Shown one piece after another: positions 10,756 through 21,820 of a DNA stretch of 21,820 nucleotides. Under the pieces are notes generated by a model. The model did no database searches and had not been told where the DNA came from. It saw nothing but the letters and a program-made list of their open reading frames with translations. This DNA is from a virus: positions 1 through 21,820 of IMG/VR virus record IMGVR_UViG_3300025930_000040; one strand, given 5' to 3'. A program made the translations under genes and the position numbers. Position 1 is the first letter of the stretch. Every line of letters begins with the position of its first letter.

Positions 10756-11556
10756 CTAATATACGCCCCCAGCGTCTTCAACAAACGGGAAGTCGCTCCA
10801 GCCACTCCCATACCACCCACGCCACGCGGTCGAGGTCCGCGCCCTTATCCAGTCCGGGGTGTGGTCCGTTAAGGTCCATCCCTCATTGCCATCCCGGACC
10901 CGCGCCTCAATCAGCGCATCCCGCGCCACCGCCAGCTGATCGCCGCGCATGGCCCGCGCCGCAGCTTTGTCTTCTATAAGCGGAACCGCAAGGCGGGCTG
11001 CGAGCGCCGCTACGAACGCGCGCCGGAACCCAGCATCCCACGCATCCGGGTACTGCACCAATCCCGTATAAACGAGTATAGCCCCAAGCTCGTTGGTAGC
11101 AATCACTCGCGTTGATTCAGGGTTGTGTCCTTCAGTCCGATCCCAATCGCTTGCGATATCGTTAACGAGCGGGGCATCGGTTACGATGAAAGGAGCTGGC
11201 CGCGCCCATGCCGGTGCAGCGGCAAGCGGCGCCCCACTTGCATCCAGCGCATACGCATTCAGCCCCAGCACCCATCTCGCGTGTACGCAGTCATTAGGCC
11301 ACTCGTACATATATGACCAATGCAGCGGGACGTTGCGGTTGTTGTGGTATTGGCCGCTCGCGTCACCGCGCATATCGATTTGGCGCTGGCGCCGGGCGAA
11401 GTTCCACGGAGCGGCAGCGTGCATCGCCCGCAGGATCGGGTCATAATTCCTGCGCGCTACGTTCGCAGCCCGTGATCCCTCATGCAGATCCCCGATCTCC
11501 TCGACCCCTATCTCATCCAGTGCTTCATTAACGATGTCATCTGGCGTTGTTGGCAT
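10756..11556 (-). CDS. Tail adaptor-like protein, copy 4 (extended)
   Basis: The start is ATG at 11556, four bases after GGGAGG, inside the end of copy 3; the product is 266 aa, the longest of the four. The N-terminus MPTTPDDIVNEALDEIG, then HEGSRAANVARRNYDPILRA and AAPWNFARR, is the family block. WSYMYEWPNDCVHARWVLG is the middle element. The fold continues with AAFVAALAARLAVPL-like helices, and an extra C-terminal tail rich in Trp/Gly/Ser (WRGWYGSGWSDFP) is missing in the other copies and may contact the nozzle protein that follows. It ends with TAG directly before the nozzle GTG start. Confidence 0.8.
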   Translation of the reverse strand: MPTTPDDIVNEALDEIGVEEIGDLHEGSRAANVARRNYDPILRAMHAAAPWNFARRQRQIDMRGDASGQYHNNRNVPLHWSYMYEWPNDCVHARWVLGLNAYALDASGAPLAAAPAWARPAPFIVTDAPLVNDIASDWDRTEGHNPESTRVIATNELGAILVYTGLVQYPDAWDAGFRRAFVAALAARLAVPLIEDKAAARAMRGDQLAVARDALIEARVRDGNEGWTLTDHTPDWIRARTSTAWRGWYGSGWSDFPFVEDAGGVY

Positions 11557-12109
11557 CGGGCCTCCCTTCGGCCTCAGGTGGGCGGTTCTTGTTACCAAAG
11601 AGACGCTCGAATTTCTTCGATAACGTCATGACCATCAGATCAATGAAATCCTCGTACCAGACATCAGGATCATGGGTGTGCACGATGCAGGTAAGAATTG
11701 GAGCCGGGTCATTGCCAAGCAGGACATAGGTCTGGTCAGCGCCGGTCTTGACTCGAAAGCGCATCGGGCGCGGACGCCATACCGGCAAAGTGTGTGGCCT
11801 CGGTTTGAGGGACAACGGTACCAGGCACGTTTCTGGCTGTGCGTACTCGTAGAGCCACGGTAAATCGGGATGCTGCCCTGCTATCCACGGTGTTTGCTCG
11901 TCGTAGTAAGGGGGCGCGGCTTTGAGTACTGTTAAGGCCACATCCTCGCGTGCCCAATCCGGTTGCAGCCGTACCAAAAGCGCGTCTCGGGTTTCGGCCC
12001 ACATATCCCGCGCCACAACCGCCTCAGGCGAACCATCACCAAACGCCGCTATACGTTGCTCATGCCCGATGATCTCGAGGGCTTGATTGATGATGTCCTC
12101 CGGCTTCAT
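11537..12109 (-). CDS. Tail adaptor-like protein, copy 3
   Basis: ATG at 12109 in an ATGA overlap gives 190 aa. The N-terminal block MKPEDIINQALEIIG, then FGDGSPEAVVARDMWAETRD, is the clearest match to copies 2 and 4. The middle has HPDLPWLYEYAQPETCLVPL, the W-x-Y-x-Y-P-like element in which Pro is shifted. The C-terminus has VWYEDFIDLMVMTLSKKFER. The last 20 bases overlap the start of copy 4. Predicted to belong to the portal-proximal tail ring, like its neighbours. Confidence 0.75.
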   Translation of the reverse strand: MKPEDIINQALEIIGHEQRIAAFGDGSPEAVVARDMWAETRDALLVRLQPDWAREDVALTVLKAAPPYYDEQTPWIAGQHPDLPWLYEYAQPETCLVPLSLKPRPHTLPVWRPRPMRFRVKTGADQTYVLLGNDPAPILTCIVHTHDPDVWYEDFIDLMVMTLSKKFERLFGNKNRPPEAEGRPDANNAR

Positions 12110-12591
12110 TGTTTTTCTTCCTTTGCAGCGACCGCGGGCAACAACCGCTGGAAGCGGTGTGCCAGGGTACGAATCACCGCCTCTGTGTAATCGGGGGGCC
12201 AATCGGCCGTGTCGAGAACGCGATCGGTACTGGCCGCGCCCGCATCGGTAAAAGGCGATACGATAAGGCGCTCACCATCGATGTAAGTCTCGAGCCAGCG
12301 GGCCGGTTCCGGGTCCAACGGATCAAAGCCAATCGGGTAAACATCGAGCACTACGACCGCGTTTGGCGGCCTCGTGTAGGCGGTCATACCAAACGCCAAC
12401 TGTCCGGTTGCGACGAGCGTGTGGAACGATCGCGCAAACAGCCACGGGCGCACCGCCAGCACCTCATCGCGCACCTCCGCAAACGCGTTAAGGGCTACGC
12501 GGGCTGCTGGCGTCCCGTCCCACACTGAGCCGATGTGGCGCTTATACCCGATAAGGTCGAGCGACTGGTTGACGACACTTTCGATCGACAT
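12106..12591 (-). CDS. Tail adaptor-like protein, copy 2
   Basis: The start is ATG at 12591, one base after the previous stop; the frame reaching 12711 has an implausible Trp/Arg/Cys-rich extension. It encodes 161 aa. The N-terminus MSIESVVNQSLDLIG, then WDGTPAARVALNAFAEVRDE and VRPWLFAR, aligns by eye with the other three copies. The central YTRPPNAVVVLDVYPIGFDP and the C-terminal helix TEAVIRTLAHRFQRLLPAV are equivalent to copy 1. It ends in an ATGA overlap with copy 3. This is the shortest member and may be a divergent ring subunit. Confidence 0.7.
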   Translation of the reverse strand: MSIESVVNQSLDLIGYKRHIGSVWDGTPAARVALNAFAEVRDEVLAVRPWLFARSFHTLVATGQLAFGMTAYTRPPNAVVVLDVYPIGFDPLDPEPARWLETYIDGERLIVSPFTDAGAASTDRVLDTADWPPDYTEAVIRTLAHRFQRLLPAVAAKEEKQ

Positions 12592-12592
12592 C

Positions 12593-13132
12593 TTACATAT
12601 CCCGCAGCTTGGCGATCCCGGCGAAACCCAGCGCCTCGTCCAACTTGACCTTGCTGGCCTCGATCCGGTTCTCCAGCGCGAAAGCCAGCGCCGATGCCAG
12701 CATCCGCACAAAGCTCTGGCGGAATATCCCGTCCCACACCTCTTCGGTGGCCGCCCAGGTGTAATGGATTTGGATCATCTCGACTTTGGTGTTGATCTGG
12801 CGAGGCCCGAAAGAGGTGGTCGTCGTCCACTCGACCGGACGCGGGTCGAGCGGATCGGAGTCCTTTGGGAAAAGCTGGCGTATCCGCAGGGCATCAGTTG
12901 GGTACGGGTAGGCGTGAAACCACGGAGTCGCTGGTACGGTGGTAAGCGCAATCAGTGGTTTTATCGACAGCGAAAAGTCATAATCGCCATCGGTCAGCAG
13001 GAAGTCCCGGATCGGCTCGTAGAGCAAGTTGATGTATGTCGCCTCAGCGGACCCGTCGTCCAGCGAAGTCATCGTCGAGCGGGTGCCTATCTGGGCCAGC
13101 GCCTCGCGGGCGACCTCGATCCGGTCAGCCAT
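12593..13132 (-). CDS. Tail adaptor (T7 gp11 / tail tubular protein A-like), copy 1
   Basis: This 179-aa protein begins with the N-terminal pattern of the tail tubular A/adaptor group: MADRIEVAREALAQIG, then LDDGSAEATYINLLYEPIRD. The middle has PATPWFHAYPYPTDALRIRQ, the usual W-x-Y-x-Y-P-x-D element, and the C-terminus has an Ala-rich helix (FVRMLASALAFALENRIEAS). Such proteins form the ring joining portal and nozzle. The ATG follows the previous TAA directly. This is the first of four tandem paralogues, and it keeps the canonical length. Confidence 0.8.
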   Translation of the reverse strand: MADRIEVAREALAQIGTRSTMTSLDDGSAEATYINLLYEPIRDFLLTDGDYDFSLSIKPLIALTTVPATPWFHAYPYPTDALRIRQLFPKDSDPLDPRPVEWTTTTSFGPRQINTKVEMIQIHYTWAATEEVWDGIFRQSFVRMLASALAFALENRIEASKVKLDEALGFAGIAKLRDM

Positions 13133-13333
13133 TTATTGCTCCTTGCACGGGTCGCCGCAGCGTTTCTCGAGATCAGCAATGCGGGCCTCGTAGTAGGCGG
13201 CCATAGCCTCTAAGGAGAGGCCAAGCTGTTGATAGGCTAGTACAACGCTGCGCATCTGTGGTGGCGATGGCTTCTGGGCCAGTGCCATCGCAGGCACAAG
13301 TGCCATTGCTAGGGCAAGCGTCTTAACAAACAT
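13133..13333 (-). CDS. Small predicted exported helical protein (66 aa)
   Basis: ATG at 13333 overlaps the previous stop by 11 bases, and TAA is directly followed by the ATG of the first tail-adaptor gene. The N-terminus (MFVKTLALAMALVPAMALAQ) is a clear signal peptide with an ALA-Q cleavage site. The mature peptide of about 46 residues is one amphipathic helix with a C-terminal CGDPC motif that could form one disulfide. It has no lipobox, so it is not an evident outer-membrane spanin. A periplasmic accessory or lysis-related role is possible but not shown. Confidence 0.65.
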   Translation of the reverse strand: MFVKTLALAMALVPAMALAQKPSPPQMRSVVLAYQQLGLSLEAMAAYYEARIADLEKRCGDPCKEQ

Positions 13334-14774
13334 AGAGCGCTCTCGTAGTTGAGTCCATGTATAACGTACCTACCGGCAACCCAGTGCACGCTGTTGGAGG
13401 ACTAACCAGCGTCACTGGCCCAGCAAGGGCTACAGTAGAGTTGAACTGCACAGTGGCGTCGGTCGGAGTGCCGGTAATTACTAGCTTGTGTGTGGGAAGA
13501 TCCACGGTCGAGGTATATCGATGCTCTACCCCAGCAATGTCAAAGACCCAATCGGCTCTATCCCGAAAATGTACCCTCGGATAAAAGTCCACTCCCCCGT
13601 TGGTAGTACCTGTATCGCTGGCAAATATCAAATTGCGATCGGTGCCTGCGTGCATACTAATAAAGTGTTTTACTTCAGTAGCGTCCGTATACCAGAAGTT
13701 AATAGCCGGTCCCTTCACGAACGCCCCAGTCGTGGCTTCCGGCTGAATATCGAGGCACACCCCATTCGGGATGATTGCCGCAGGATTACAGGCGAAGCCG
13801 CGCAGCCATGTCGTCAAGCCGGGACTCTGCACGCTCAAAGAGCCGACCACCACACCGTCGCGGACGTTGCTGGTAAGTGTCGCTGTCGAGGTGCCATACA
13901 GCCCAATGCCGATCAGCCGGTCGTTTGGCGAGGCCATGTTGAAATCGCCCTCATAGCCTTGCAGCACCTTGCCTGTGCCATTGGGGTCGGTCGTGTTCTG
14001 GACTGTGTTGATGCCCCATACCGCAGCGTTGTTGACGACGGCGTTGCTGATGCCCATGAACGCGACCGAGTTGCCGCTCTCGCCGAGCGACGGAGTGCGG
14101 TTCATCACATAAGCGCCCACCGCAGCAGCATTCTGTACCGTAGTACCCGCTGGTATGTCGGCGCGGACCTCGAAAGTGTTGTACTGTGGCAGGCCGAACA
14201 GATCGCCGTCGAGCACCGTGCCCTGCGTGTTCTCTATCTTGCTGAACGACGATGTGGTTGTGTAAGCCGCTGTGTTGCGCCCACTCGCCACCAGGCCACC
14301 GCCGGTTGTTGCGAGGGGGCCGCCGCAATCCTTGATAAAGGTGCCCAGCGTGTCGTTCCAGCAAGTCAGGTTGTTGATTACTGTAGGGGCTCCGCCCACG
14401 GTATTGCCCGCGCCCTGCCCAACAAACGGATAAACAACCCCGTTTACCTCGAGCACCGGGGTCGTTTGCGGCGACTTGGTGCCGCCCCAGATGATCTTGC
14501 CGCTCTTGGCGTCGATGCAGAGCTTGTAGTAACCGCTCGGCGCGTCGGTCGGATCGCTATAGTCGCAGCGCCCGCCCACCGTCGCGTCACCAGTAGTGAT
14601 TATCTGACCGCTCGGAGCGCCGCCCACGGGCGCGCCCTGACGCGCCCGGTTGTTCCCCCGAAACATCATCGGAGCATTCTGGAGGACGGTGCCTTCCTGC
14701 GTGATCGCGTTCTGGGCGCGCCCTTCGGGTGCAAGGGCGCACAGCGCCAGTGCGACGGCGAGAACCCTCTTCAT
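13323..14774 (-). CDS. Large predicted exported protein (483 aa), possibly fibre-like
   Basis: The correct start is ATG at 14774 in an ATGA overlap; the longer frame to 14822 adds an Arg-rich piece that is not protein-like. The N-terminus is a Sec signal peptide (MKRVLAVALALCALAPEG then GRA-Q at about residue 21). The mature part begins with AITQEGTVLQNAPMMFRG, includes a VGGRCDYSDPTDAPSGYYKL segment, a long Asn/Thr/Gly-rich beta region, and a C-terminus ending PVGTLYMDSTTRALYVC. Such Gly/Thr-rich beta architecture resembles fibre or adhesin proteins. Eight cysteines remain after the signal, again an even number. A long plus-strand frame lies opposite but is a shadow. It may be a decoration or receptor-related protein; function not proven. 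Confidence 0.55.
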   Translation of the reverse strand: MKRVLAVALALCALAPEGRAQNAITQEGTVLQNAPMMFRGNNRARQGAPVGGAPSGQIITTGDATVGGRCDYSDPTDAPSGYYKLCIDAKSGKIIWGGTKSPQTTPVLEVNGVVYPFVGQGAGNTVGGAPTVINNLTCWNDTLGTFIKDCGGPLATTGGGLVASGRNTAAYTTTSSFSKIENTQGTVLDGDLFGLPQYNTFEVRADIPAGTTVQNAAAVGAYVMNRTPSLGESGNSVAFMGISNAVVNNAAVWGINTVQNTTDPNGTGKVLQGYEGDFNMASPNDRLIGIGLYGTSTATLTSNVRDGVVVGSLSVQSPGLTTWLRGFACNPAAIIPNGVCLDIQPEATTGAFVKGPAINFWYTDATEVKHFISMHAGTDRNLIFASDTGTTNGGVDFYPRVHFRDRADWVFDIAGVEHRYTSTVDLPTHKLVITGTPTDATVQFNSTVALAGPVTLVSPPTACTGLPVGTLYMDSTTRALYVC

Positions 14775-14980
14775 GAGCGTGAGGTTGGTACGAGTTCGCC
14801 GAACGGCGTCGCGATCGTCCACTCCTCGCCGTTCTCAAGGACCAGATCGCTCCAGCCTGGGTCATCCCCACAGGGCGACGCCTCCATTATAAATCGTATC
14901 CCGATGGCGATCGGCTCCTGATCCACGACTCCAGTGACAACACGCTTAGTCAGGATGAACTCGTCAGTCGATAAGGGCAT
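14771..14980 (-). CDS. Small conserved-looking protein of unknown function (69 aa)
   Basis: The start is ATG at 14980, five bases after AGGAGG (14986-14991), which itself overlaps the stop of the previous gene. The predicted protein has alternating hydrophobic strands (EFILTKRVVTGVV, IAIGIRFIMEASP, WSDLVLENGEEWTI) and looks like a small beta-barrel or sandwich domain. It has no signal peptide, unlike its neighbours on both sides, and ends in an ATGA overlap with the next gene. No family recognised. Confidence 0.65.
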   Translation of the reverse strand: MPLSTDEFILTKRVVTGVVDQEPIAIGIRFIMEASPCGDDPGWSDLVLENGEEWTIATPFGELVPTSRS

Positions 14981-14989
14981 TTATGCCTC

Positions 14990-15424
14990 CTAAGGGGCTT
15001 GTGCAAAAATCTGTCCGGTAGTCGCCGCTGTCAGCGTGGCACATCCAGTAGAACTAACTGCTACGACAATGCCGGTCGTGAATGACATTGGGCTATTCCA
15101 CTGCCGATCCACATAACCGCCAGCCGCCACCGGCGCGCACCACATCAGACACGGACGAGCCGCAGCTGCATTGGCACAAGCGGCAACCGCACCGTTGGAT
15201 GGCAGCGAAGCGGCATCGTATACGAGCACAAACCCAGCCGCACTACTAAACACAGTCAGTGAAGCCAAAGCCTTACTCGGTGAAGCGAGGACGAGGCTCG
15301 ATGTCCCTGCCGTACTGACCTGTTGGTCGATCTCTACCTGGTTGAGCGGATTAGTAAAGATTTGGGCATCGGCATCGAGCGATCCACCTAACACGAAGGC
15401 CGCCGCCAGAAACAGGTGGCGCAT
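14990..15424 (-). CDS. Predicted exported small protein (144 aa), unknown function
   Basis: ATG at 15424 overlaps the previous stop as TGATG; an upstream GTG would add one residue. The N-terminus is a good Sec signal peptide: basic start (MRH), hydrophobic LFLAAAFVLGG and a signal peptidase I-type site ADA-Q near residue 20. The mature part (about 124 aa) is beta-rich, with FSSAAGFVLVYDAASLPSNG and a C-terminal TTGIVVAVSSTGCATL. It has four cysteines, an even number that fits periplasmic disulfides. Export is unexpected for a gene inside a virion-assembly operon. It could be a periplasmic or surface protein, or a virion protein whose hydrophobic end is retained. No family function is known to me. 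Confidence 0.65.
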   Translation of the reverse strand: MRHLFLAAAFVLGGSLDADAQIFTNPLNQVEIDQQVSTAGTSSLVLASPSKALASLTVFSSAAGFVLVYDAASLPSNGAVAACANAAAARPCLMWCAPVAAGGYVDRQWNSPMSFTTGIVVAVSSTGCATLTAATTGQIFAQAP

Positions 15425-15801
15425 CACGATTTGTCCTCGACCAAGTGTGGCCCTCTTTGCGGGCGAGGTATGCCAGGAAAACCGGGGATGTAGCGGTCAT
15501 CGTAATCATCGCGCCCACCCGTCAAATGCGCCAACATAACCGGGAGCTGATCCACCGGGTTCATCGAGGCGTTGTTGCGGGCCAACCGCTCCCGCTCCGT
15601 ATCCATCATCGCCTCGGCCTCGTCGTCGAGGGGTAGCATCTCGAGGGTAGCGTGGACCACTGGGTAGGGCGTGCCGTCACCAACGAGCGTCCCACGCTCC
15701 TCCCCAAGATGCTCTGTCTCTCTGTCCCCAAGCAGAAGTACGTCCGCTTTAAGCTCTATATTGCGCAATTGATGTGCTGCAAGCAATCTGAACTTTGCCA
15801 T
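15424..15801 (-). CDS. Head-module protein of unknown function, related to its upstream neighbour
   Basis: Two adjacent ATGs occur (15804, 15801). The second is five bases from AGGAGG and gives 125 aa. The N-terminal 65 residues (MAKFRLLAAHQLRNIELKAD, later HLGEERGTLVGDGTPYPV and ATLEMLPLDDEAEAMM) share the layout of the previous protein: an RLL start, a central Gly-Asp turn, a T-x-E/Q-M segment and LDD. This suggests an old duplication. The C-terminus is Pro/Arg-rich and probably flexible. It ends in a TGATG overlap with the first signal-peptide gene. No function recognised. Confidence 0.65.
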   Translation of the reverse strand: MAKFRLLAAHQLRNIELKADVLLLGDRETEHLGEERGTLVGDGTPYPVVHATLEMLPLDDEAEAMMDTERERLARNNASMNPVDQLPVMLAHLTGGRDDYDDRYIPGFPGIPRPQRGPHLVEDKS

Positions 15802-15816
15802 CATGTCCTCCTATGC

Positions 15817-16449: not shown

Positions 16450-16926
16450 CTAGTTCGGGACTGTAATACCAGGTGGGTATCCAACATAGTCCGCGCGATC
16501 GAGGACCAGTGCGGCATAGATACCCCCGGCTCCATGCGTGCCTGCCGAAACGTACTGAAGTCGGTAGAAGCGCGGCAGCGGCGCTCCAGGGGGCGGGCGC
16601 GGAATGTCCATCGGCAGCAGGTAACGGCCCGCGACCAGATCGGCCTCGAGCACCGCAGCGCTCTCGGCGTAGGTCACGTAGGTACCAGGTGTACCGGAAC
16701 CGGAGTCCGGTGCGCCCTGGAACTGGACCTGAAGGCTGGTCCCACCTGTAAGTGTCGTCTTGACCACACAAAGGAGCTTTATGGCCGGATCATCGCCAAT
16801 GCCCATATCGCGGGCGTTAACGAGGTCGATCACATTTGTGGACTGCTGCGTTCCGGTGGTCGGAAGGTCTACAGACCCCGCAACTCCTGCTGTCCCACTG
16901 AACTGCAATGCGCCATCAATAATCAT
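16450..16926 (-). CDS. Bbp16-like capsid cement protein
   Basis: This 158-aa protein follows the capsid gene after an 11-base gap with AAGGAG seven bases before the ATG. The start MIIDGALQFSG, the STNVIDLVNARDMGIGDDPA segment at about residues 29-48, and the C-terminal YRLQYVSAGTHGAGGIYAAL region agree with the Bbp16 family, the cement protein that trimerises on the BPP-1 capsid surface. The predicted fold is a beta-sandwich with few charged helices, as expected. It should stabilise the mature shell. Assignment rests on sequence pattern and neighbours. Confidence 0.85.
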   Translation of the reverse strand: MIIDGALQFSGTAGVAGSVDLPTTGTQQSTNVIDLVNARDMGIGDDPAIKLLCVVKTTLTGGTSLQVQFQGAPDSGSGTPGTYVTYAESAAVLEADLVAGRYLLPMDIPRPPPGAPLPRFYRLQYVSAGTHGAGGIYAALVLDRADYVGYPPGITVPN

Positions 16927-16937
16927 CTCACAGCTCC

Positions 16938-17981
16938 TTAAACAACGCGGGCTTCGGTCGAGAGGATAGCATCTACCGTCCTCACCGGAATGCCCCTGAA
17001 CATCGTTACAACGCGTCCCTGGAACTCCTGCAACGACAACAGGACGTTGGTCTTATTCATCGCCTGGAGGTCCAGATATGTCCGGACGACGCGGTTACAG
17101 TACATCGCGGTGTTGCCCATCGATCCCTGGATCTGTGGGCTATCCGAAGTCTGGATGCCCGTAGCCGCTGGAGAGGCCGTCGGAAGGCGATACAACCCTC
17201 GAACCATCCCATTGATCAGGTTCGCCGCGCTGGCACCGTTCAGCAGTGTGACGTCGATGTTGGCGAGCCGGACGTTGTAGCGCCAATCCCTCACCGCGAG
17301 CCCAATCTCCCACTTGAAGTGGTCCCTATAGGCCTGATAAGTGTTGCCGCTAGCATCTTGGACAGGCCACTCACCCATATCGCGGTGCTGAAGGCCAGTC
17401 ATCTTACCTTTCGGGAAGATACCGTGAGTGGTGTTCGCGCCCCAGGTCACGATCCAGATGGAGGTGTTGGTGCCACCAGTGCCGCCCATATCCACCACAT
17501 TGGCGGCGCTCTGAGCGTTCGCTGCCGTCACCGTCGAGTACCTCGGGGCGAAGCCTGTAAACCGCTCCGGGTTTACGGCCTGGTTCCCATAGATAATCGT
17601 GGAGGCGATCTGCTGGTTCATCCCCTCGAGGAACGCAACCACTTCCGATCCACGGAACTCACTCGTATTCCCGTTCAGATCGGCGATGTCCTTATCGACC
17701 AGAGCATACGCCTCCAGATTCCCGCAGGTGTCGATGATCGGCGCGGTGGTCGATTTGGAGTTCGGGACGCCGTAATTGAGCAAGCGCCACGTTGCAGTCG
17801 GCAGACCGGTCCTCACCGTCGTCTTGTGGCCGGTGGGCAGGTTGCCTTCCAGCACCAACATATCCAAGAGGATCTCGTTGGTCTGCGAGAGCAACTCGAT
17901 GATGGTGCCGATGCGATAGCCGTCCTCAACCCGCTTTGCCCAGTCGGCGTAGGTTAGGACGGTTGTTCCAAGTACTGCCAT
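16938..17981 (-). CDS. Major capsid protein
   Basis: This 347-aa protein has the length and composition of HK97-fold-type capsid proteins of BPP-1-like and related podoviruses. The N-terminus (MAVLGTTVLTYADWAKR), the segment LPTGHKTTVRTGLPTATWR at about residues 48-68, and GNTSEFRGSEVVAFLEGMNQ in the middle are the family's conserved stretches, recognised from memory of the family. It forms the icosahedral shell. The ATG at 17981 is preceded by AAGGA overlapping the scaffold stop, and the stop is followed within a few bases by AAGGAG for the cement gene. Order scaffold-capsid-cement matches the BPP-1 head module. Confidence is high. Confidence 0.93.
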   Translation of the reverse strand: MAVLGTTVLTYADWAKRVEDGYRIGTIIELLSQTNEILLDMLVLEGNLPTGHKTTVRTGLPTATWRLLNYGVPNSKSTTAPIIDTCGNLEAYALVDKDIADLNGNTSEFRGSEVVAFLEGMNQQIASTIIYGNQAVNPERFTGFAPRYSTVTAANAQSAANVVDMGGTGGTNTSIWIVTWGANTTHGIFPKGKMTGLQHRDMGEWPVQDASGNTYQAYRDHFKWEIGLAVRDWRYNVRLANIDVTLLNGASAANLINGMVRGLYRLPTASPAATGIQTSDSPQIQGSMGNTAMYCNRVVRTYLDLQAMNKTNVLLSLQEFQGRVVTMFRGIPVRTVDAILSTEARVV

Positions 17982-18628: not shown

Positions 18629-18881
18629 CTTCCATCTCCTTTAACATCTTGAGATACATATCGTGATTGGCCTGCATCGCCTCGGCTTGCAGTCTGAGGC
18701 CGATAAAGCGCGATCCCTCCCGGAACGCTAAGCTGAGGGCGTTGGACACGCCAAAGGTCGCCCAAACATTGCACTCAGCCATGAGATTGTAGAGCCATCG
18801 ACGCCCGGCAGGTTCGCCTAAAAAACGCCCCAATGCCTGCATCTCCGCGACTCTTTCAGGCGTGAGCTTGATCTTAGCCAC
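18543..18881 (-). CDS. Bbp19-like phage protein
   Basis: The best start is the GTG at 18881 (112 aa), which overlaps the portal stop (GTGGCTAA) and follows GGAGG by about 5 bases; a GTG at 18893 would add four residues. Residues about 15-75 carry the pattern LGEPAGRRWLYNLMAECNVW then SLAFREGSRFIGLRL, characteristic of the Bbp19-like family found between portal and scaffold in BPP-1-like phages. The function is not established as far as I know. The C-terminus becomes an acidic Gly/Asp tail (DSDGDPDDDD). The last 86 bases are also translated in another frame as the start of the scaffold gene. Confidence 0.85.
   Translation of the reverse strand: MAKIKLTPERVAEMQALGRFLGEPAGRRWLYNLMAECNVWATFGVSNALSLAFREGSRFIGLRLQAEAMQANHDMYLKMLKEMEVERPGAIGTRGFGDSDGDPDDDDGTGSA
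18635..18642 (-). promoter_or_regulatory. Ribosome binding site of the scaffold gene, inside the Bbp19-like gene
   Basis: AAAGGAGA on the minus strand ends six bases before the TTG at 18628. This is one of the best Shine-Dalgarno matches in the window, and it decides the scaffold start although the site lies inside the upstream coding region. A strong site paired with a weak TTG start suggests tuned translation of an abundant protein. Confidence 0.7.
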
Positions 18882-20547
18882 CGCTGCCTCCACCCAACAT
18901 CAACTGGAGGGCATTCGCCCCGCCACCCACATCCGTCTCACTGAGCGTCTTCGCGCCCTGTGCAGCGGTAGCGGCCATCTCGACGGCCTGCGCGGCCTGT
19001 TGTTGTGCCGCTCGCGCTTCACGCGCCGCCGCTGCATCCTCGTCTCCCACCACAATCTTCGGCGACACGCCCAGCGCCGCTGCGTATTCATCAATCGTCT
19101 GATCCGGGTTCAACTTGTCGAGGATGTCTGGGATAACCGCCGCGAGGTTACCGGCGAAGCCCCACAACTTCTCGATCCCGGCAGTCGCAATGCCCTTCTG
19201 TGCCATCGCCAGCATCGAGATGTAATCGACCTGGATGTTGGTTGGTGCTCCGCGCAACGACGCAGGTGGGGGCGGTAGCAACTGGCCGCGCCACATAATG
19301 CCCCATACCCGATCAATCCCGCTCCCAAGCCCTTCATGGGCCGACTCTATCCTCTCCAGCACCGGACCCAACAATACCAGCTTCTCTTCGCGGCGCGCAT
19401 CGATCTCGGTCGCTGTCCGCACCGTCTGCAGATCGGTGATACCCGTGAAGAGGTCGTTGTGGAAGGTGATCTTGATGCGCTGCTGGACTTCGCGGATATC
19501 CTGCATCATCTCAGCGATCGGTGGCATGATGGTGTAGATTGGGCGTGCGCCCTCCCGGTCGCGGCCTAGCCCCGAGACGTAGGTCATCCCACCCGGCAGC
19601 AGGCTCATCGGTTGGTTCTTGAGTTGGACATCGGCCAGCATGGGCGGGTTTACCATCTTGTCGATGGCCTGTGCTTTGCGCAAAGTTTCCTTTTGGAGCT
19701 GTTTGATGTCGCCCAGCGCATCCATACCAGGGCTGCGCCCATAGGGATCGTTTGACTGGACGTCCCATCGCGGGGTCATACAGGGCCAATCATAAAAGCC
19801 CCGGCTTCGCAAAAGAGTGTTGTTCGGGGAACCGATCTCCCAATAGACCTCACGGAACGGGAATTTCTTCGGGACCATCGAGAAATCGCCGGTATTGCGC
19901 TCGATGATGTGGCCGATCCGCTTCTCGTGCGACTTCATCGAGCCCTGCTCATAGCCCCGGCGCACCTCCGGCGATACCTTCTCTTCCCCAAACTCCTCAA
20001 CCATTTGACAGTAAGTCAACACAAATTCGCGGGCGACGGTGCCGACCTCGAGGTTGTTGTTGAGATCGAAGAAGAACTCGCCCAGGCACGGATTGAAGCA
20101 GTGAATGATGTTGTCATAGTTCTCGTAAACGATGATGCACGCGCTGCCGAACACCACCAGGTCGAAATACATGATCGCCATCGACTGGTAGAAGTTTGAT
20201 GACTGGAAGACGGTCATCATCCTTCGTTCACAGTCACTCAACCAGCTTTGGACCTCGTAATCTTCCTCGTAGCCCTCGATGCGGAGCTTGAACCAGGGGC
20301 GGGTAGGGCTGGTTATGCCGTTCATCATCCCGCTCGCGAGCGTACGCGCCGCGAGTGTGCCGGTCGAGTCGATTATGTTCGTGTTGATGTCGGCTCCGCG
20401 CGACCGATCATTAGCGGTGATGAGCCACTTGTACCGCCTCGGAAGGATGTAGCTCGATAGGTCTCGCCAGTGCAAATACCAAGTCATTCGCACCGTGCGG
20501 AGCGACTCTATCCGCTCTTGCGCATATTTACGATACGCTTCGCTCAT
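18874..20547 (-). CDS. Portal (head-to-tail connecting protein, podovirus type)
   Basis: This 557-aa protein has the normal length for podovirus-type portals. The N-terminus has the family hallmark of a Trp-rich helix and a YILPRR segment at about residues 20-40 (WYLHWRDLSSYILPRRYKWL). The middle contains GSACIIVYENYD and the stem/clip-like segment around RKAQAIDKMVNPPMLAD. The C-terminus is an Ala/Gln-rich helix (roughly 500-535) followed by a Gly-rich tail. As a dodecamer it should sit at one capsid vertex, forming the DNA channel and the platform for the tail adaptor. It starts with ATG in an ATGA overlap, and its 3' end contains the GGAGG used by the next gene. The family assignment is firm. 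Confidence 0.95.
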   Translation of the reverse strand: MSEAYRKYAQERIESLRTVRMTWYLHWRDLSSYILPRRYKWLITANDRSRGADINTNIIDSTGTLAARTLASGMMNGITSPTRPWFKLRIEGYEEDYEVQSWLSDCERRMMTVFQSSNFYQSMAIMYFDLVVFGSACIIVYENYDNIIHCFNPCLGEFFFDLNNNLEVGTVAREFVLTYCQMVEEFGEEKVSPEVRRGYEQGSMKSHEKRIGHIIERNTGDFSMVPKKFPFREVYWEIGSPNNTLLRSRGFYDWPCMTPRWDVQSNDPYGRSPGMDALGDIKQLQKETLRKAQAIDKMVNPPMLADVQLKNQPMSLLPGGMTYVSGLGRDREGARPIYTIMPPIAEMMQDIREVQQRIKITFHNDLFTGITDLQTVRTATEIDARREEKLVLLGPVLERIESAHEGLGSGIDRVWGIMWRGQLLPPPPASLRGAPTNIQVDYISMLAMAQKGIATAGIEKLWGFAGNLAAVIPDILDKLNPDQTIDEYAAALGVSPKIVVGDEDAAAAREARAAQQQAAQAVEMAATAAQGAKTLSETDVGGGANALQLMLGGGSGG

Positions 20548-20744: not shown

Positions 20745-20884
20745 CACTCATCCTCCTTCGGCTCTTCACGCTCGGCGCGCTCCCAGAACTCCTGGTCGCG
20801 CCCTTCCGGCTCACCGGCCGCGCGCCACAGCCAATAGGCTCGCTCCAGTACCCGGCGCTCGCGTTCAGTCATATCTTCGCTCAT
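20744..20884 (-). CDS. DUF2934-like small protein (46 aa)
   Basis: A 46-codon gene starts with ATG at 20884, overlapping the previous stop as ATGA, and ends in TGA that overlaps the next gene's ATG as TGATG. It encodes a charged helical peptide with the pattern ERAYWLWRAAGEPEGRDQEF followed by WERAE. This matches the DUF2934 family (usually RAYxLWExxGxPxGRDxxHWxxAE), a short family of unknown function common in proteobacteria and their phages. Seeing this pattern in a tightly coupled position supports a real gene despite its size. No function is assigned. Confidence 0.8.
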   Translation of the reverse strand: MSEDMTERERRVLERAYWLWRAAGEPEGRDQEFWERAEREEPKEDE

Positions 20885-21820
20885 CGTACCACCGCCCAGG
20901 TCGGATCATCGGCCCACGGAATCGCTATGCCGCTTTCCAGCGTCTTCGCCGCAATCGTCTCCTCGCAGCGGTCCCAAGCTTCCTCGCCGCCGGGCTGGTC
21001 GGTGACAAACGACAGGGCCGTACGCGCCTCGTTGTAGTAGTTGATCGGCAGGCCCCAGTAGCCTATCTCGATCTCTCCATTCAGCCTGCCGGTTTGTTTC
21101 TGGGCCGACCACCCGGTGAGCACTTCGTCCCAGGACTCGAACCATGCCGCGCCTGTGCCTGCTTTCTTCATATCAGGCACAACATATTGCCCGCACAGTT
21201 GCGGCGGGTATCCCTCCGTGCCGAACTGTCCGATGACGTGCGGCGCCACCCAGGCGAGCAGGTCATCGCATGGAAAACCAAGTTCCCGGCCCCGCCCGAG
21301 CGCGGCGATGCAAAACATCGTCATCCAATGTGAGTTGGCCGAATAGGCCACGGTAGTGTTGTAGTAGACCGGATCGGTGGCAGCGTAGCCGCCTGCCCCT
21401 GCCCACCATCGGCAGGGCGGCGGGCCATGCCCGCTCCATCCGTCGCCGGTTGTGCCGATGGGCGTGGCGCCGAACACATGCTGGACGCTTCCGGCGAACT
21501 CGGTGTCGTTGATATGCCGCTGCCCCTCGTCCTTTGCTATGGCTTCGTCGACCATCCGCTCGAATACCCCCCGGAGTGGATCGGTGTCGGGCAGCAAAGC
21601 AGCGGCATTGAACAATGTTCGGTACATCCAGCCCATAGCTCGCGTCTGACCGTCGCCATAACAGGTCATGTTAGAATAATTCCGGTAGCCCGGATTGCCC
21701 CACAGTGAGTTGCATCCCTGCCACATTTCGAGGCCATCGAGGAAGAACGGATCGCCGGTCATCAGGTACGGTATCGAGAACGGGTCCGGGTGGTGCGCGA
21801 TGTCCGACTGCCGCCCGTTC
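20881..21820 (-). CDS. Unrecognised protein, possibly helical-toroid type, upstream of the portal (5' end missing)
   Basis: The reading frame is open to the right edge, so the start lies outside the window; 312 codons are present. The first internal Met is at 21762, but coding continues upstream of it (AHHPDPFSIPYLMTGD), so that Met is not the start. The protein is rich in Trp, Tyr and Gly with regularly spaced helical segments. Phrases such as HHPDPFSIPYLMTGDPFFLDGL, split by short loops, recall alpha/alpha-toroid proteins that act on sugars, but I see no catalytic signature and give no function. It ends with an ATGA overlap onto the DUF2934-like gene, so it is co-transcribed with the head genes. 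This is the place where a terminase large subunit is often found; no Walker motif is visible here. Confidence is high that it is coding and low on role. Confidence 0.5.
   Translation of the reverse strand, partial: NGRQSDIAHHPDPFSIPYLMTGDPFFLDGLEMWQGCNSLWGNPGYRNYSNMTCYGDGQTRAMGWMYRTLFNAAALLPDTDPLRGVFERMVDEAIAKDEGQRHINDTEFAGSVQHVFGATPIGTTGDGWSGHGPPPCRWWAGAGGYAATDPVYYNTTVAYSANSHWMTMFCIAALGRGRELGFPCDDLLAWVAPHVIGQFGTEGYPPQLCGQYVVPDMKKAGTGAAWFESWDEVLTGWSAQKQTGRLNGEIEIGYWGLPINYYNEARTALSFVTDQPGGEEAWDRCEETIAAKTLESGIAIPWADDPTWAVVR

Follow-up and report, generated by a model that had tools for sequence, protein, structure and literature searches.

A predicted Sec-exported gene block between capsid and tail genes of an epsilon15/BPP-1-like podovirus is a candidate receptor-binding module

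Three genes lying between the head and tail genes of an epsilon15/BPP-1-like podovirus encode proteins of 144, 483 and 66 aa with predicted Sec signal peptides and even numbers of cysteines. Our preferred interpretation, held at slightly better than even confidence, is that this block is an exported receptor-binding module, whose products would leave the cytoplasm by the Sec route, form disulfides in the periplasm and join virions at lysis. Sequence comparison with related phages points to the signals, to export with disulfide formation, and to the larger family members being tailspikes or tail fibres.

The window (the whole stretch of DNA that was analysed, 21,820 nucleotides) is a 21.8-kb fragment from IMG/VR. 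Both its capsid protein and its portal matched the epsilon15/BPP-1 type in Pfam (GP7-type and head-tail connecting families, respectively), the Bbp16 cement gene and the phrog_394 and phrog_376 tail genes were found in the expected epsilon15/BPP-1 order, and a nozzle and internal virion proteins are encoded as well. The trio sits on the minus strand between the capsid/cement and tail-adaptor genes, and the open reading frames proposed in a first-pass annotation of this DNA were confirmed at 15427-14990, 14774-13323 and 13333-13133 (minus strand). That annotation had also described an exported set inside a virion operon; the gene overlaps bear this out, and the association recurs in many related phages. 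Neighbouring genes share bases or adjoin directly (TGATG at 15424, a 4-base overlap at 14771-14774, an 11-base overlap at 13323-13333, and abutting ends at 13133/13132), and we therefore place the trio in one operon with the virion genes. The 144-aa gene could start at a GTG at 15427, giving 145 aa, or at the ATG at 15424 that overlaps the previous stop, giving 144 aa. Where the window has a 69-aa ORF, the relative G001 has an unlisted gap of ~70 codons. Features are collected in Table 1.

Table 1. Positions, strands and basis of assignment of the features in the window.
Feature	Position	Strand	Basis
Portal (head-to-tail connecting protein)	18874..20547	-	Pfam PF12236, E 1.4e-138
Major capsid protein, GP7 family	16938..17981	-	Pfam PF20911, E 1.7e-132
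Bbp16-like cement protein	16450..16926	-	Pfam PF21190, E 4e-9
126-aa ORF, upstream operon neighbour, without signal or Cys	15424..15804	-	ORF list and signal scan
144-aa predicted Sec precursor; mature part a predicted 8-stranded jelly-roll domain with 4 Cys	14990..15424	-	ORF, signal scan, family alignment A2, AlphaFold2
Predicted signal peptide of the 144/145-aa protein, cleavage ADA/Q	15365..15427	-	Heuristic Sec scan; relatives
69-aa ORF between the 144- and 483-aa genes, no signal, one Cys	14771..14980	-	ORF list and signal scan
483-aa predicted Sec precursor, candidate tailspike/tail fibre; conserved N-terminal anchor, wholly variable C-terminal part	13323..14774	-	
Predicted signal peptide of the 483-aa protein, cleavage GRA/Q	14715..14774	-	Heuristic scan; conservation break
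Mature N-terminal anchor of the 483-aa protein, residues 21-137, invariant Cys pair C70/C86	14364..14714	-	Alignments A1, A4
66-aa predicted Sec precursor; short, probably helical mature part ending C-G-D-P-C	13133..13333	-	
Predicted signal peptide of the 66-aa protein, cleavage ALA/Q (or AMA/L)	13277..13333	-	Heuristic scan
Tail adaptor (phrog_394), downstream neighbour, start adjoins the 66-aa gene stop	12593..13132	-	

Two further features of the window are recorded here. Positions 10756-13132 hold four tandem adaptor-like genes (179, about 161, 221 and 280 aa), as against one each in epsilon15 and BPP-1; phrog_394 is the match for three of them, and the 161-aa one has a BLASTP hit to the first (5e-10). 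At 20881-21762 lies the C-terminal part of a gene that adjoins the portal gene and is cut near the window end; its counterpart in G001 is 812 aa long and had no Pfam or PHROG match.

Relatives were assembled as 80 viral loci, found via the capsid protein, and 31 loci from bacterial assemblies, with genes called by a simple script. The cassette was defined as the genes between capsid and nozzle, counts are of non-redundant families, and signals were scored by a heuristic scan that has a background of 3-5% elsewhere and includes some true membrane proteins among its positives. Signals were present in 98/237 cassette genes of the soil clade to which the window belongs, whereas upstream of the capsid gene the figure was 9/322 (Fisher p about 2e-32, a value that, as with all Fisher tests on these loci, overstates independence even after clustering because the loci share ancestry). 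At the same stretch in other lineages, 5/91 cassette genes had signals. Cassettes in relatives are often larger than that of the window, with as many as six genes carrying a signal in a single listed stretch, and signal-bearing genes also adjoin capsid/adaptor genes in another podovirus lineage (L170, L194, L202).

Within the window, the three proteins follow the Sec/signal peptidase I pattern, with a positive n-region, a hydrophobic h-region and A-x-A, and the heuristic scan agrees with the ADA-Q, GRA-Q and ALA-Q sites of the first-pass annotation. With a slash marking cleavage, it reads the 144-aa protein as MMRHLFLAAAFVLGGSLDADA/QIF, the 483-aa protein as MKRVLAVALALCALAPEGRA/QNA, and the 66-aa protein as MFVKTLALAMALVPAMA(LA)/Q; in the last case it favours AMA/LAQ, with ALA/Q tied as equally plausible. 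Relatives of the 144-aa protein keep the charge and hydrophobic pattern together with A-x-A/Q or a similar site. Taken as a prediction from sequence, export of the signal-bearing cassette proteins is strongly supported.

The residue after the cleavage site is Gln in 61/98 signals of the phage cassettes. By the same crude scan, Gln makes up 10-41% of the +1 residues scored in samples of bacterial chromosomes; of the four samples that yielded at least 10 signals, three have it as their most frequent +1 residue. Gln at +1 is thus ordinary for Sec signals, and its reading as a special shared signal was rejected; pyroglutamate formation there is possible. Lipoproteins resembling the exclusion factor Llp were likewise rejected, since +1 is not a lipobox Cys in any of the three, being Gln (Leu at the alternative site of the 66-aa protein).

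A recount of the cysteines in the mature parts gave 4, 8 and 2 for the 144-, 483- and 66-aa proteins, all even, as first annotated. Even counts characterize the mature parts of 82/91 signal-bearing families, versus 101/223 families without signal (p 1.6e-14), and neighbouring cysteines occur in pairs in 32/42 proteins with a signal versus 31/58 without; those of the 483-aa protein form four sequence-adjacent pairs. Such patterns strongly support disulfide formation as a predicted property of the exported cassette proteins. Two other phage contigs, L173 and L189, have four to five signal-bearing genes at the cassette locus; in L173 all five large genes have even cysteine numbers (12, 6, 2, 10 and 4), including the first, whose signal the scan missed.

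The 483-aa family combines a conserved N-terminal anchor of about 117 mature residues with a C-terminal part that is replaced wholesale among close relatives. An anchor followed by a swapped C-terminal part is the usual layout of tailspikes and fibres. The break in conservation at the other end of the anchor coincides exactly with the predicted cleavage site, pairwise identity being 39% in the signal versus 92% in the first 30 mature residues, and C50 and C66 of the mature part are invariant in alignment A1. A search with alignment A4 retrieved 17 anchor loci; all those examined begin with a signal-like stretch (for L280 an unusual start codon has to be assumed, and L283 is without the Cys pair), and no non-exported anchor homologue was found among them. 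In the more distant L058, a 483-type anchor is joined to a pectate-lyase-like tailspike domain (E 6.8e-8, above the Pfam cut-off); L004 and L012 have the anchor and then a pectate-lyase-like domain at E about 1e-5, just below the cut-off. The window protein itself had no Pfam or PHROG match, hence no spike or fibre domain of its own, and its monomer structure model, one of those called for in the first-pass annotation, was unusable at pLDDT 38. For these reasons the case for a tailspike is built on the anchor that it shares with relatives and on modular variability, and we regard the protein as a candidate that may work like a tailspike, not as a confirmed member.

Structure prediction was more successful for the 144-aa protein, which AlphaFold2 modelled with pLDDT 81.8 overall and 84-95 across nearly all of the mature domain, so that a jelly-roll fold is confidently predicted. 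A fold search of the PDB gave as its best matches the HFTV1 turret (Z 7.5), the KHP40 cement protein (Z 5.8) and a Milano neck chain (TM about 0.45), all weak matches in the range of common arrangements, and no function was therefore drawn from them. In relatives the domain is also the C-terminal domain of larger exported proteins, and in other phages it is found both with and without a signal. Of the members with a signal 51/53 have a Cys pair, of those without 0/10 (p 5e-10), and clustering at 70% leaves 29/31 versus 0/9; the counts of 51/53 and 0/10 were read by eye from aligned segments because an automatic regex misread several 'STTGC' members. A purely automatic alignment count gave 43/54 versus 0/9. 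Nine of the ten signal-less members have Pro at the second Cys position ('STTGP' versus 'STTGC' in exported ones). Because the Cys pair appears only together with a signal, we take export to be real. Some non-exported copies occur in virion modules, directly after a capsid-like gene in L219 and between portal-like and scaffold-like genes in L191. This distribution suggests one structural domain serving two redox settings. Isolated phage records gave no match to the 483- or 144-aa protein, nor to the distant domain copies of L065 and L202; a search of 289 sampled genomes from the class to which G013 belongs did not find the 144-aa domain, an empty answer from which we draw no inference.

The 66-aa protein has two homologues, L023_13 and L017_6, and both keep the Cys pair of the CGDPC motif. 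The first-pass annotation had looked to co-occurrence of the three genes in other phages, and this was found in part: all three are present in L008/L023 (=G001), and elsewhere there are partial sets, comprising the 144-aa gene and the large gene without the 66-aa gene in L004, L011, L014, L021 and G008, and, in L017, the large gene with a 66-aa-like one but no 144-aa gene.

Other signal-bearing cassette proteins carry recognizable domains, namely a Phage Tail Collar domain (E 5e-12) and the endosialidase chaperone Peptidase_S74 (E 7e-11), and a PHROG scan of 62 cassette proteins matched many tail fibre/spike families. None of 29 signal-less late proteins scanned from the four long relatives G003, G004, G005 and G007 matched a tail fibre/spike family; the scan covered part of their late proteins, and a 713-aa G004 protein lay outside it. 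G001, which carries all three genes, also encodes large signal-less proteins of 812 and 1049 aa that might instead be the receptor binders, which would count against the exported-spike reading. Caulobacter phage Kuura, found via the collar domain, had no signals in the genes checked.

Several observations on the relatives stand apart from this comparison. Capsid relatives among the bacterial assemblies come from mixed MAGs and isolates. Among MAG relatives that have an exported cassette L095 is the closest, and it is in an assembly labelled Terriglobia; its phage contig may be misbinned, so the label cannot be used to assign a host. Membrane proteins of the O-antigen ligase-like (Wzy_C) kind lie inside three cassettes (L044:4132-5010, L052:5339-6253 and L062:12737-13651), one of them above the Pfam cut-off, and possibly serve in receptor modification. 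G005 has a second signal-bearing pair of 541 and 118 aa (L132:13347-14972 and G005 34480-34836) upstream of the portal region and away from the main cassette, both with Gln at +1 and with 6 and 2 cysteines. A conserved signal-less protein of ~130 aa ('LDDSITERDLLWRIFRELVTLRKQN'-like) adjoins exported spike genes at L129:555-953, L135:18425-18817, L141:7467-7859 and L070:8826-9224 and could be a docking or assembly factor.

The cassette is a lineage-specific feature within a familiar genome plan. The window shares with the epsilon15 and BPP-1 types (Uetakevirus, Rauchvirus) the GP7 capsid, Bbp16 cement, portal, adaptor, nozzle, and GNAT-like and transglycosylase gene order; in contrast, the space between capsid and adaptor is occupied by only two or three small signal-less genes in epsilon15, BPP-1, BcepC6B, Caulobacter Jess A and Limnohabitans DC33, and it is because these isolated relatives are without signal genes there that we consider the exported cassette lineage-specific. 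Pectate-lyase-like beta-helix tailspikes of the P22 and epsilon15 type likewise have a conserved N-terminal anchor and a variable C-terminal part, and beta-helix and endosialidase-chaperone domains both occur in the window's relatives, whereas a Sec signal, conserved Cys pairs and predicted periplasmic maturation belong to the cassette proteins. P22 spikes fold inside infected cells, and an export step is not described (PMC9576892).

In the mechanism that we propose, the 483-aa tailspike or fibre would be made as a Sec precursor, exported, and freed of its signal at Ala/Gln, after which its Cys pairs would be oxidised to disulfides in the periplasm. The exported 144-aa jelly-roll protein would most likely be a further surface or receptor-binding part, and the 66-aa protein an exported accessory. 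Heads and tail stubs would be built in the cytoplasm as usual, and finished spikes would encounter them once lysis opens the inner membrane, with attachment as the last assembly step. That exported spikes attach to virions, and at what stage they do so, is our inference. In podoviruses the spikes are the last part to be added, and spikeless particles can take them up in vitro, which makes joining at lysis plausible. Those podovirus spikes that have been studied fold, to our knowledge, in the cytoplasm, and an exported spike would need a late joining step that is not known from them. For the full two-compartment scheme, with cytoplasmic heads and tail stubs, Sec-exported oxidised spikes joined only at lysis, and particles infectious only once the cell opens, we put the chances for and against at par.

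The alternatives differ mainly in where the exported proteins end up. The first-pass annotation had suggested receptor masking, superinfection exclusion or help with release; direct support for these was not found, and the evidence points instead to tailspike or tail fibre proteins with an accessory jelly-roll domain. A related idea is that the exported proteins are freed at lysis and never join virions, and that, as free spikes or lectin-like proteins, they remove or cover receptors on debris and neighbours and so curb the loss of progeny or superinfection. The well-supported export agrees with this, as do spike-like domains that could cut or bind surface polysaccharide, and O-antigen ligase-like genes in some related cassettes would make surface change a theme. 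However, it would leave G003, G004, G005 and G007 without a recognizable spike or fibre, and the genes lie among virion genes and combine an anchor with swapped C-terminal parts in the manner typical of virion-attached spikes; we consider it unlikely. The phage-encoded, signal-bearing, envelope-located exclusion or receptor-blocking proteins Llp of T5 and Cor of phi80 are small lipoproteins or membrane-bound factors. They resemble the window proteins, as predicted here, in all three of these respects; the window proteins differ in being without lipobox Cys at +1, and the large one is modular and spike-like. A mixed case is possible, if doubtful: the large protein would be a virion spike, and the 144- and 66-aa proteins periplasmic helpers, such as a spike chaperone, disulfide partner, lysis aid or exclusion factor. 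The 66-aa gene does adjoin the spike gene in L008/L023 and L017 (L028 has a different 70-aa signal protein there), and its size fits a chaperone or exclusion factor, but the use of the 144-aa domain as the C-terminal part of larger exported proteins and its non-exported copies in virion modules make that domain look more structural than helper.

The remaining alternatives question cleavage or the signals themselves. The N-termini might be uncleaved membrane or hydrophobic anchors for cytoplasmic assembly or DNA entry, with disulfides arising only after lysis, as maybe in Agrobacterium phage Milano. Milano virions have extensive disulfide networks, and the text of the paper is silent on the periplasm (PMC10491603). 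This reading nevertheless leaves unexplained the A-x-A/Q sites, the conservation break at the site, and a Cys pair that comes only with a signal, and we judge it very improbable. Milano and 7-7-1, phages of Alphaproteobacteria, share with the virions proposed for the cassette phages cysteine-rich, disulfide-stabilised proteins; they differ in that, in the passages searched, signal peptides or a periplasmic stage are reported for neither. In both phages the bonds join capsid, neck and tail; the cysteines of Milano link capsid, neck, collar and sheath, not exported spikes (PMC10491603). Finally, gene-calling artefacts or chance hydrophobic N-termini could be suspected given the heuristic nature of the scan, its background and the true membrane proteins among its matches, but set against the enrichment (p about 2e-32), the cysteine parity (p about 1e-14) and the conserved boundaries, we find this scarcely credible.

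A search of the open PMC literature (subscription papers and preprints being outside its scope) found no report of Sec-exported tail fibres; 'signal peptide' appeared in the phage papers found in connection with the Lom protein, a lysis esterase, a holin, and general methods. The usual account of tailed phages has their virions assembled wholly in the cytoplasm up to the point of lysis. If the exported receptor-binding module is real, the host-recognition parts of many soil phages would be matured by the host Sec and Dsb pathways, and particles would acquire host-binding ability late. The combination of a signal and a Cys pair could then reveal host-range proteins of uncultured phages where sequence search fails, and exported cassettes would be a source of disulfide-stabilised, naturally secreted proteins that bind or cleave polysaccharide. 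The question of compartment becomes testable with one purified virion preparation.
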